DNA of 64,000 nt from Thermobifida halotolerans (GTDB lineage Bacteria; Actinomycetota; Actinomycetes; Streptosporangiales; Streptosporangiaceae): positions 2,790,001 to 2,854,000 of the forward strand of contig NZ_CP063196.1 in assembly GCF_003574835.2 (NCBI RefSeq), given 5' to 3'. The position numbers and the translations under genes are program-made. Shown piece after piece: positions 37,437 to 45,157 of this stretch. The notes under the pieces were generated by a model. The model saw only the letters and a list, made by a program, of their open reading frames with translations. It made no database searches and was not told where the DNA came from. The first letter of the stretch is position 1. Every line of letters starts with the position of its first letter.

Positions 37437-37554
37437 GTACGGCGGCGACCTACTCTCCCACCCCACCAAAGAGGCAGTACCATCGGCGCTGGACGGCTTA
37501 ACTACCGGGTTCGGAAAGGGACCGGGTGGACCCCGCCCGCTATGACCGCCGTAA
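37437..37554 (-). rRNA. rrf: 5S ribosomal RNA
   Basis: On the minus strand the gene begins TTACGGCGGTCATAGCGGGC and ends near GGTCGCCGCCGTAC, forming the terminal helix I with its 5' end. Internal landmarks include CCCGGTCCCTTTCCGAACC and GCCTCTTTGGTGGGGTGGGA. Ends are approximate within about 5 nt. Confidence 0.92.
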
Positions 37555-37627: not shown

Positions 37628-37644
37628 CCCAGCATCTGCGGTGG

Positions 37645-40726
<3,082 letters not shown>

Positions 40727-40741
40727 ACCACAGAAACAAGA

Positions 40742-41091: not shown

Positions 41092-42632
<1,541 letters not shown>

Positions 42633-42803: not shown

Positions 42804-42820
42804 GCTGTTGAGTTCTCAAG
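42804..42820 (-). promoter_or_regulatory. rRNA leader: pre-16S processing arm with boxA-like element
   Basis: The transcribed strand reads TTGTTTCTTGAGAACTCAAC then AGCGCG, the TTGAGAACTCAACAG element common in actinobacterial rRNA leaders. ACTCAACAGC (42804-42813) is complementary to the 16S trailer at 41081-41090. The adjoining TTCTTGAGAAC is a likely antitermination/boxA-type segment (inference). Confidence 0.6.
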
Positions 42821-42933
42821 AAACAACCGCCGACCGTCCACAAGCCACCAGGCTCTTCCCCAGCCGCGGCATTCCCGCTACACCCCCCAGAAACCAACCG
42901 ACTCGCGTCAGTCCTTGTTTCCGGGGTGTTTCC

Positions 42934-42939
42934 ACTCTA
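42934..42939 (-). promoter_or_regulatory. -10-like hexamer TAGAGT, proximal rRNA promoter candidate
   Basis: On the minus strand GGGGGTAGAGTGGAAAC contains TAGAGT about 300 bp before 16S. It is the third of three similarly spaced hexamers. No good -35 is seen; Streptomyces rRNA promoters also often lack one. Confidence 0.35.
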
Positions 42940-43038: not shown

Positions 43039-43044
43039 AGACTA
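43039..43044 (-). promoter_or_regulatory. -10-like hexamer TAGTCT, middle rRNA promoter candidate
   Basis: GCGGGTAGTCTGGGAAG on the minus strand places TAGTCT 105 bp upstream of the proximal hexamer. A TTGTGC lies 20 bp before it, slightly too far for an ideal -35. Confidence 0.35.
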
Positions 43045-43138: not shown

Positions 43139-43144
43139 ACTCTA
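43139..43144 (-). promoter_or_regulatory. -10-like hexamer TAGAGT, distal rRNA promoter candidate
   Basis: GGTCGGCTAGAGTCTTTCGG on the minus strand; the hexamer TTCGCC lies 18 bp upstream as a weak -35. It is 100 bp upstream of the middle hexamer and 45 bp downstream of the last ECF-type promoter unit. Confidence 0.4.
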
Positions 43145-43188
43145 GCCGACCCCCGCCCATTTGGCGAACCAGGCCGGGCAAACCAGTA

Positions 43189-43216
43189 CAACAGGCATCA
43201 GGCCCAGGCTATTCCC
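43189..43216 (-). promoter_or_regulatory. ECF (SigR/SigH-type) promoter candidate, unit 1
   Basis: GGGAAT (43211-43216), 18-bp spacer, GTTG (43189-43192). It is the unit nearest the rRNA genes, about 560 bp from the 16S 5' end. Confidence 0.65.
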
Positions 43217-43264
43217 GGCCCCCTCCCGAAGGAGGTACCGCCTGCTGACGGCTCCGACTCGGTC

Positions 43265-43292
43265 CAACAGGATCAGGTCCGGGGTTATTCCC
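43265..43292 (-). promoter_or_regulatory. ECF (SigR/SigH-type) promoter candidate, unit 2
   Basis: GGGAAT (43287-43292), 18-bp spacer, GTTG (43265-43268). Confidence 0.65.
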
Positions 43293-43344
43293 CGACCCCC
43301 TCCTACGGGAGGAGGAGCCACCTGCCGGCCGGTCCTACCCGCTA

Positions 43345-43372
43345 CAACAGGCGCAGGCCCCGGATTGTTCCC
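43345..43372 (-). promoter_or_regulatory. ECF (SigR/SigH-type) promoter candidate, unit 3
   Basis: GGGAAC (43367-43372), 18-bp spacer, GTTG (43345-43348). The whole promoter core is identical to unit 6. Confidence 0.65.
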
Positions 43373-43407
43373 GAACCCTCCCGCCTGTCCAGCGGACCGA
43401 ACCAGTC

Positions 43408-43435
43408 CAACAGACGCCGGGGCCGGACTATTCCC
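43408..43435 (-). promoter_or_regulatory. ECF (SigR/SigH-type) promoter candidate, unit 4
   Basis: GGGAAT (43430-43435), 18-bp spacer, GTTG (43408-43411). The sequence upstream of its -35 is identical to that of unit 1. Confidence 0.65.
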
Positions 43436-43475
43436 GGCCCCCTCCCGAAGGAGGTACCGCCTGCTGACAGGCATC

Positions 43476-43503
43476 CAACAGCCACAGGGCCCCGGCTGTT
43501 CCC
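43476..43503 (-). promoter_or_regulatory. ECF (SigR/SigH-type) promoter candidate, unit 5
   Basis: GGGAAC (43498-43503), 18-bp spacer, GTTG (43476-43479). Confidence 0.65.
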
Positions 43504-43536
43504 GGACCTTCCCGACTGCTGGGGACCGACCTGTTC

Positions 43537-43564
43537 CAACAGGCGCAGGCCCCGGATTGTTCCC
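43537..43564 (-). promoter_or_regulatory. ECF (SigR/SigH-type) promoter candidate, unit 6
   Basis: GGGAAC (43559-43564), 18-bp spacer, GTTG (43537-43540). Identical in core to unit 3. Confidence 0.65.
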
Positions 43565-43598
43565 GAGTCCTCCAGCCCGTCTGGCGGACAAACAGCCC

Positions 43599-43626
43599 CA
43601 ACAGCCACGAAGCCCCGGTTGTTCCC
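43599..43626 (-). promoter_or_regulatory. ECF (SigR/SigH-type) promoter candidate, unit 7
   Basis: GGGAAC (43621-43626), 18-bp spacer, GTTG (43599-43602). Confidence 0.65.
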
Positions 43627-43677
43627 CGGTGCCTCCCCTGGACGGAGGACCGCCTGCCGAACAGGGCCGAACTACTC

Positions 43678-43705
43678 GAACACGCCGCGGTGGCCGACTG
43701 TTCCC
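43678..43705 (-). promoter_or_regulatory. ECF (SigR/SigH-type) promoter candidate, unit 8 (outermost)
   Basis: GGGAAC (43700-43705), 18-bp spacer, GTTC (43678-43681). It is the most divergent unit, about 155 bp after the tyrS stop codon. Confidence 0.55.
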
Positions 43706-43827
43706 GAGCCTTTCCGGACCCTCGCCTCGTCTGCCCGCGAAGCCCGCGGCACACGGATCGCAGCGGAGATCCCGGCCCGACGGACGACGACGCCGCCGGA
43801 AACACGGGGCACGCCACGCCGTAGGAA

Positions 43828-43858: not shown

Positions 43859-45157
43859 TCAGCGCAGGACCACTCCGCCGACGTTGCGCTTGCCCCGACG
43901 GAGCACCAGGTAGCGTCCGTGCAGCAGATCCTCCTCGGAGACCCGCGCCTCGATGTCGGTGATCTTGGCGTTGTTCAGGTAGGCCCCGCCCTCCTGCACC
44001 GCCCGGCGGGCCGCCGACTTGCTGGGCACCAGCCCGGTGGCCGCCAGCAGGTCCACCACGGGCGGCAGTTCGCCCACCGGTCCCGCGAGTTCGACGTGGG
44101 GGACCTCGGCCAGGGCCGCCCCGAGGGTTCCCGGGTTGAGTTCCGCCAGCGTCCCCTGACCGAACAGCGCCCTGCTGGCCTCGATGACGTTGCGGCACTC
44201 CTGTTCCCCGTGGACCAGGGTGGTCAGCTCCTCCGCCAGCGCCCGCTGCGCCGCACGCGCGGCGGGCCGCTCGGCGGTCTGCCGCTCCAGCTCCTCGATC
44301 TCCTCACGGGAGCGGAAGCTGAAGATGCGCAGGTACCGGGAGACGTCCCGGTCGTCGGAGTTGAACCAGAACTGGTAGAAGGCGTAGGGGCTGGTCAGTT
44401 CGGCGTCCAGCCACACCGCGCCGCTCTCGGTCTTGCCGAACTTGGTGCCGTCGGCCTTGGTGAGCAGGTTGGTGGTGAGGGCGTGGGCGGGACCGTGCGG
44501 CTCGTTGCCGTCCATCCGGCGGATCAGGTCCAGGCCGGCGGTGATGTTGCCCCACTGGTCGCTGCCGCCGATCTGGAGCGTGCAGCCGTGTCTGCGGTAC
44601 AGCTCCACGTAGTCGTAGGACTGCAGCAGCACGTAGCTGAACTCGGTGTAGCTCATCCCCACACCGTCGAGTCTGCTCCTGACGGTCTCCCGGGCGAGCA
44701 TCTGGTTGATGCTGAAGTGTTTGCCGACGTCGCGCAGCAGTTCGATCGCGCCCAGCTTCCCGAGCCATTCGGCGTTGTCCACGAGAACGGCGTCGGTGGG
44801 CCGCGGCGTCTCGCCCTCGGGGGTGAAGTCCAGGAACGCCGAGAGCTGGCGTCCCAGGTTCCCGACCCACTCCTGGACGGTCTCCACCGAGTTGAGGGCG
44901 CGTTCGGCGTTGGGTTTGGGGTCGCCGATCATGCCGGTGCCACCACCGACCAGAGCGATCGGCCGGTGCCCCGCTCGCTGGAAGCGGGCCAGGGTGAGTG
45001 CCTGGGTCAGGTGGCCGACGTGCAGGCTCCCCGCCGTGGGATCGAATCCGCAATAGAGGGTGACCGGGCCATCGGCGAGCGCCTTGCGCAGATCGTCAAG
45101 GTCGGTGGTCTGCGCGATGAGTCCGCGCCACTGCAGGTCGTCGATGATGTCGGTCAT
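43859..45157 (-). CDS. tyrS: Tyrosyl-tRNA synthetase, 432 aa
   Basis: This class I synthetase charges tRNA-Tyr. The Rossmann domain begins [20 protein letters not shown] (HIGH-type motif HVGH); tyrosine-site residues lie in [20 protein letters not shown] and [10 protein letters not shown]. The KMSKS-type loop reads [16 protein letters not shown]. The C-terminal S4 domain is [23 protein letters not shown] at 45157 ([16 protein letters not shown]) has an adequate GGAAAGA upstream. Length is standard. It lies directly upstream of the rRNA promoter array and is divergent from the hydrolase gene. Confidence 0.96.

Follow-up and report, generated by a model that had tools for sequence, protein, structure and literature searches.

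The housekeeping sigma factor normally drives rRNA synthesis, which is reduced under stress. The rrnD operon of Streptomyces coelicolor, like the operon described here, presumably carries multiple tandem promoters before its 16S gene, and to our knowledge these are not known as SigR-type promoters.

The promoters closest in sequence to the present locus are those of S. coelicolor SigR and of mycobacterial and corynebacterial SigH. The S. coelicolor SigR consensus is GGAAT-N18-19-GTT (PMC9205884), and SigR and SigH promoter forms are quoted in PMC3489674. SigR is released under thiol stress and increases during translation inhibition, and "ribosome modulation" genes have been linked to it (PMC4921905). 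In addition, SigR is linked to the ribosome through RbpA and two ribosomal-protein genes (PMC2374992). The closest arrangement is the hypervariable multiple promoter region of mycobacterial rrn operons, one of which lies downstream of tyrS; the number of tandem promoters varies by species, with two in one and five in another (PMC10218544). The -35 box of one mycobacterial rrnA promoter is noted there as similar to a SigD site, which is a partial precedent for alternative-sigma input to rRNA promoters (PMC10218544).

This study was concerned with a row of eight repeats between tyrS and an rRNA operon. The repeats share with the SigR and SigH promoters the GGGAAY -35 box, the GTT -10 box and the 18-bp spacing, and the genome likewise has a SigR-RsrA pair and a similar site upstream of sigR. 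However, the SigR and SigH promoters described in the sources above are sites before stress genes, not arrays. As in the mycobacterial region, several promoter-like sites lie between the upstream gene and the 16S gene, but the multiplied promoters described there have sigma-70-type boxes (PMC10218544), whereas the units here are ECF-type repeats (GGGAAY-N18-GTT), eight or eleven of them, upstream of three housekeeping-type promoters. A non-exhaustive search of titles and abstract openings in the open-access literature found no account of rRNA operons preceded by arrays of ECF or SigR promoters. We consider it likely that the repeats are tandem ECF promoters of the SigR (SigH) class, directed into the rRNA operon and standing upstream of three conserved housekeeping-type promoters. 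This reading rests on the boxes, their spacing and strand, the selective conservation of the boxes, the presence of SigR and RsrA genes, the likeness to sigR upstream sites and the recurrence of the arrangement at other rRNA operons.

The array in the window and in its genome

The window is the whole 64-kb stretch of DNA that was analysed. A pattern search of the window for GGGAAY-N18-GTT found eight matches on the minus strand, which is the rRNA strand, between 43190 and 43705, and none on the plus strand. The features of the locus are as follows, with the evidence in brackets.

43679..43705, minus strand: putative promoter unit 1, farthest from 16S, GGGAAC-N18-GTT (pattern; reads TGTTC; outside the box-blind 29-nt family)
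43600..43626, minus strand: putative promoter unit 2, GGGAAC-N18-GTT (pattern and box-blind family)
43538..43564, minus strand: putative promoter unit 3, GGGAAC-N18-GTT (pattern and box-blind family)
43477..43503, minus strand: putative promoter unit 4, GGGAAC-N18-GTT (pattern and box-blind family)
43409..43435, minus strand: putative promoter unit 5, GGGAAT-N18-GTT; its core recurs unchanged three times in operon 3 (pattern and box-blind family)
43346..43372, minus strand: putative promoter unit 6, GGGAAC-N18-GTT; 27-nt core the same as in unit 3 (pattern and box-blind family)
43266..43292, minus strand: putative promoter unit 7, GGGAAT-N18-GTT (pattern and box-blind family)
43190..43216, minus strand: putative promoter unit 8, nearest 16S, GGGAAT-N18-GTT (pattern and box-blind family)
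43139..43144, minus strand: -10-like box TAGAGT of putative housekeeping-type promoter P1 (aligned in relative G001, TAAAGT)
43039..43044, minus strand: -10-like box TAGTCT of putative housekeeping-type promoter P2 (aligned in G001, TATTCT)
42934..42939, minus strand: -10-like box TAGAGT of putative housekeeping-type promoter P3 (identical in G001)
42805..42823, minus strand: rRNA leader element TTTCTTGAGAACTCAACAG, downstream of the array and P1-P3 (sequence and G001 alignment)
41098..42631, minus strand: 16S rRNA
37640..40727, minus strand: 23S rRNA
37437..37553, minus strand: 5S rRNA
43859..45157, minus strand: tyrS, tyrosine--tRNA ligase, upstream neighbour of the array (TIGR00234, 380.6 bits)

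The first G of the units lies at 43705, 43626, 43564, 43503, 43435, 43372, 43292 and 43216, which gives start-to-start periods of 79, 62, 61, 68, 63, 80 and 76 bp. The longer form GGGAAYAR-N15-TGTT is present in all eight units, every GGGAAY of the array has a GTT at 18 bp, and the spacing is exactly 18 bp in the 11 copies of operon 3 as well. Under a first-order Markov null for the 555-bp region, the expected number of sites is 0.007 on average, with a maximum of two in 5000 trials. Two of the eight 27-nt cores are identical (units 3 and 6).

The repeats were also recovered when the boxes were not used to find them. A box-blind repeat search placed seven of the eight units in one 29-nt family, each at least 68% identical to the reference copy; Tandem Repeats Finder reported 2.6 copies only. 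In these seven units, all of them distinct, 14 of 28 columns are invariant (the Y being left out), including all nine letters of GGGAA and TGTT (p = 2.9e-4). A stronger value (p = 1.8e-5) is partly circular because its units were chosen by the pattern itself. The initial annotation had proposed eight GGGAAYAR-N15-TGTT repeats on the rRNA strand, with constant spacing inside units of 61 to 80 bp and with divergence concentrated outside the two boxes, and all of this was borne out by these searches. The array region also contains one sigma-70-like sequence (a 9-of-12 match).

The source genome (G000) comprises 5.5 Mb in two contigs and has four rRNA operons, of which the window operon is operon 1. 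The search of the other operons that the initial annotation had suggested found 11 copies upstream of operon 3, whose neighbour is a PcrA/UvrD-type helicase gene, and none in the upstream regions of operons 2 and 4. Among the 19 copies found with the pattern in the two arrays, the -35 box is GGGAAT in ten and GGGAAC in nine; A follows GGGAAY in 19 of 19, T precedes GTT in 19 of 19, and G follows GTT in 18 of 19. Operon 3 contains a 222-bp higher-order repeat (3.4 copies, 96% matches), and thus plain tandem duplication has been at work. Operons 1 and 3 are identical across 828 bp upstream of 16S, four promoter units included. Together with the 222-bp repeat, this identity argues that the array has evidently been amplified recently and copied from operon to operon.

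The nearest complete relative (G001) lacks the array at all three of its rRNA operons, and both neighbour genes, on the tyrS side and the pcrA side, also precede rRNA operons there. An alignment of the pcrA-side operons of the two genomes shows three common -10-like boxes and the leader motif. The array lies between the upstream gene and the conserved P1, a position at which G001 has nothing comparable. The array thus appears to be an addition to the housekeeping-type promoters P1-P3 and not a replacement for them, where P1-P3 are read as promoters from their -10-like boxes. The upstream region of the tyrS-side operon differs in G001. This difference, taken with the identity of operons 1 and 3, makes operon 3 the probable source of the entire promoter region of operon 1.

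GGGAAYA-N16-TGTTG occurs 20 times in the genome, with 18 copies in the two arrays (window unit 1, which reads TGTTC, is uncounted) and two elsewhere; a dispersed repeat of the REP or MITE kind was rejected on this confinement. Among the matches listed (100 of 177, less three from the arrays), a spacing of 18 is not over-represented between GGGAAT and GTT, with 10 pairs against 11 at 15 and 11 at 24, in a range of 4 to 11. Single sites were examined at 26 loci (25 distinct sites), with 12 lying inside likely genes and 8 having no clear downstream gene. These loci and 14 further stretches gave no clear SigR regulon. At one of the 26 loci the site stands 19 bp ahead of an apparent transaldolase gene, and the one plausible site among the 14 stretches stands 164 bp ahead of an apparent pdxS gene, both genes being identified by eye. 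At another locus (G000:C1:4267277-4269300) a 245-bp stretch occurs twice, 259 bp apart, with GGGAAT-N18-GTT near each start (4267477 and 4267736) and, by eye, an apparent terminator hairpin after the second copy. This is perhaps a duplicated small-RNA unit; in Rfam it gave a sub-threshold ctRNA_pGA1 match only, on the opposite strand (33.1 versus 45 bits).

Candidate sigma factors

The genome encodes SigR (TIGR02947, 347.3 bits) and RsrA (TIGR03988, 106.6 bits) in adjacent genes, both above the curated cut-off. Within 400 bp upstream of sigR, GGAAY-N18-GTT was found in 18 of 21 genomes sampled from genus to class, the source genome included. Other spacings from 12 to 24 gave nine matches in total, six of them N15, and the antisense strand of these 21 upstream regions gave no GGAAY-N18-GTT. 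TGTT is present in all 18 of the sigR sites and in all 19 array copies. Most of the sigR sites lie at positions compatible with the sigRp2 probe used in S. coelicolor, which spans -311 to -186 (PMC4921905). The S. coelicolor form quoted in PMC3489674 has G or C after GGGAAT, C or G before GTT and G after it. The A and T flanks of the arrays are unlike this form but like other SigH forms quoted there, and like the TGTT of the sigR sites.

A second SigR-class sigma factor is encoded at C1:4778667-4779203 (positions 2111-2710 of locus L100), with 302.3 bits to TIGR02947, over the cut-off. It has over-cut-off counterparts in several family genomes, and no RsrA-like gene was seen beside it in the list of open reading frames for the locus. 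None of nine genes for such SigR-like paralogues (sigR2) has the upstream site, one of them with 206 bp available only. One of four other ECF genes of the source genome (C1:5290147, locus L318) has GGAAC-N18-GTT 180 bp upstream, so the motif may not be exclusive to SigR. The SigR/SigH-type match claimed in the initial annotation is backed by the published consensus, the 18 sigR upstream sites, the SigR and RsrA genes and the recurrence at other rRNA operons, and the array can be assigned to SigR with fair confidence.

Similar arrays in other actinobacteria

A tandem pair of the boxes was found in 10 of 200 genomes of the family. A three-copy pattern was found in one of 393 genomes of the class sample, which is the source genome, and in 24 of 354 Micromonosporaceae genomes. 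Reversed-pattern controls gave none in each set (0 of 200, 0 of 393 and 0 of 354). A separate scan, over named genomes, gave 97 stretches; among the 80 listed, the spacers of the first triple are at least 0.6 identical in 66 and less so in 14. These 14 comprise four rRNA-type or contig-end loci (L142, L153, L173, L174), three Micromonospora secreted-protein loci (L158, L170, L181), one locus each from Actinomadura (L167) and Streptomyces (L178), and five from other phyla (L117, L155, L177, L182, L187). By eye, 24 actinobacterial loci were read, and for 16 of them and L178 the downstream sequence was read as well. The last (Streptomyces sp. DI166) has three diverged GGGAAC-N18-GTT sites on the reverse strand, at 1995-2156, before a gene read by eye as a response regulator.

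Arrays or pairs are present before rRNA operons in three lineages: the source genus, where the 16S gene is in place, and genus g71 (same family) and the Micromonosporaceae, where the rRNA leader is in view. That other actinobacterial lineages have matching boxes and spacing before rRNA operons appears to be new. The core of the leader element TTTCTTGAGAACTCAACAG served as the marker for rRNA operons at contig ends. Such a leader is visible after the sites at three loci (L075, L251 and L252; one in g71 and two in the Micromonosporaceae). At eight further loci the arrays or pairs reach contig ends, and most show homology to such leaders. In 13 rRNA-linked or contig-end loci GTT stands at 18 for 69 of 70 GGGAAY boxes, a count that is partly circular since the loci were found with the pattern. 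At each of the 13 the sites face the operon or the contig end. The flanking bases at the g71 and Micromonosporaceae rRNA loci are mostly G after GGGAAY and C or G before GTT, compared with A and T in the source genome, and this dependence on lineage makes one sigma for all arrays uncertain.

Three genomes of genus g71 (G106, G162, G201) have one conserved box pair in common. The pair of G106 is followed by the leader GAGAACTCAACAG and therefore precedes an rRNA operon. The sequence after the pair of G201 is 93% identical to G106 over 361 bp, up to the contig end. G162 has a short stretch after the pair before its contig ends and is alignable around the pair. Three other genomes, G056, G129 and G063, are also among the ten of the family with a tandem pair; that of G063 (L084, 1501-1582) is a GGGAAY-N18-GTT pair between genes read by eye as rplL and rpoB. 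In genus g44, which supplies three more of the ten (G157, G171 and G199; L095 2712-4129, L096 and L097), five or six GGGAAT-N18-GTT copies stand before a c-di-AMP riboswitch, present in all three, and a secreted-protein gene; the one protein scanned (L095) has a CHAP domain.

Micromonosporaceae arrays are of two kinds, those before secreted-protein genes and those before rRNA operons. In G556 (contig 13) and G779 the rRNA leader is visible after four copies. Six more arrays reach contig ends: G556 C21, G557 C59, G557 C83, two in G885 and one in G884. Compared with the G779 leader region, G556 C21 is 66% identical over 120 bp (E 2.7e-7) and G557 C59 is 73% identical over 77 bp (E 5.6e-9). G557 C83 and both G885 arrays are 80-84% identical to G557 C59, and the G884 contig has too little sequence after the array for comparison. 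None of these six arrays reaches a 16S gene. Rfam gave no rRNA in 18 of the loci read by eye and no 16S in the G556 and G557 contigs examined, so the contig-end arrays are not joined to a 16S gene. Spacers within the rRNA-type arrays are 36-51% alike (91% in G779). Spacer identity between these arrays and that of the source genome is 0.27, about chance, with the boxes kept, which points to separate origins or to complete spacer turnover. The initial annotation had named a repeat with unconserved boxes in relatives as evidence against promoter function; no degenerate copy was seen, and the boxes recur with unrelated spacers.

The trait is rare and patchy among lineages. The 1.8 kb upstream of each of 60 Micromonosporaceae rRNA operons contained no array, and one of the 60 had two isolated sites; the array was thus rejected as a trait of that family. 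The operons were drawn from matches in 48 of 91 genomes, after incomplete matches, operons located at the start of a contig or on a short one, and two of the three G689 operons had been set aside.

By eye, arrays before secreted-protein genes were seen in Micromonospora and Phytohabitans (L121, L122, L127, L140, L145, L158, L170, L171, L176, L181, L184, L256, L257), at several loci per genome in some. C or G precedes GTT in all 44 sites counted there. Two of the secreted proteins were scanned; one (L256) has a C39-like peptidase domain and the other no Pfam match.

Alternative readings and proposed role

Other explanations were considered for the array. The units could be promoters for another ECF sigma with similar GGGAAY/GTT specificity, such as the SigR-like factor of C1:4778667 or the ECF factor of C1:5290147. 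Two SigR-class sigmas exceed the TIGR02947 cut-off in the genome, the C1:5290147 gene has its own upstream site, and like arrays stand before the riboswitch and secreted-protein genes of the three g44 genomes and before Micromonospora secreted-protein genes, where under a different sigma they would mark a cell-envelope response. We regard this reading as unlikely but deserving of some weight, since the copies carry TGTT as do all 18 sigR sites and the site is absent upstream of the nine sigR2 genes. Alternatively, one former promoter, or junk, may have been duplicated in tandem without selection and multiplied through recombination between the rRNA operons, which would fit the 222-bp repeat, the 828-bp identity and the lack of any trace in G001. 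This is nevertheless quite improbable: the boxes are invariant while the remainder of the unit diverges, unrelated spacer sequences separate the same boxes at the same distance before rRNA operons in other lineages, and at all 13 loci the sites face the operon or the contig end.

The high copy number at one place would suit a decoy, in which the array would sequester free SigR holoenzyme and weaken the stress response, or hold polymerase close to the rRNA genes, with no productive pre-rRNA. All copies face into the operon, which a decoy would presumably not need, and we give this reading little credence. A repeated operator for a DNA-binding regulator is very improbable. In the GGGAAC units AACA forms an inverted pair with TGTT, and unit 4 has a perfect longer inverted repeat, but the symmetry is lost in three of eight unique cores, which have AATA instead, and the repeat search found no inverted repeat of at least 16 nt in the array region. 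C or T at that -35 position is normal for ECF -35 boxes. The palindromic operator was rejected on the missing symmetry. Scarcely credible is a structured RNA repeated in the rRNA leader, serving processing or antitermination. Hairpins of the CCTCCTTCGGGAGG type are seen by eye upstream of some -35 boxes, but the eight units fold no better than shuffled sequences (z-scores -0.87 to 0.35), and the RNA element was rejected for lack of signal.

For the preferred reading, tandem SigR-class promoters, a mechanism can be proposed in which we infer the firing of the sites, SigR as the sigma factor, the kind of stress that acts as signal and an advantage of many copies. Each unit would provide a -35 GGGAAY and a -10 GTT(G), 18 bp apart. 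SigR would be freed by RsrA under thiol stress, or more SigR would be made under translation-inhibiting antibiotics. The SigR holoenzyme could then start pre-rRNA at additional sites, as many as eight in operon 1 and eleven in operon 3, and the transcripts would pass the leader element and enter the usual processing. Synthesis of rRNA may thus be kept up or restored when the housekeeping holoenzyme is short, with many copies offsetting the lower strength of a single unit compared with an ordinary rRNA promoter. Absence from G001 and from two of the four operons of the source genome speaks against an essential role.

The arrays suggest that some of these bacteria can make rRNA on a stress signal. 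Whether rows of SigR promoters arose independently before some rRNA operons in several actinobacterial lineages, giving growth operons that lack the array and stress operons that have it within one cell, seems to us evenly balanced. If so, ribosome synthesis would be handed from the housekeeping sigma to a redox and antibiotic-stress sigma, with the number of repeats setting its strength. RbpA and ribosomal-protein genes already connect SigR with ribosome production (PMC2374992), and the array would be a direct tie. Natural variants in repeat number would allow study of how tandem promoters add up, and the separateness of growth and stress rRNA operons becomes a directly testable question. Multiple copies of an ECF promoter before selected rRNA operons would reverse the usual wiring and give ribosome production a direct and tunable stress input.
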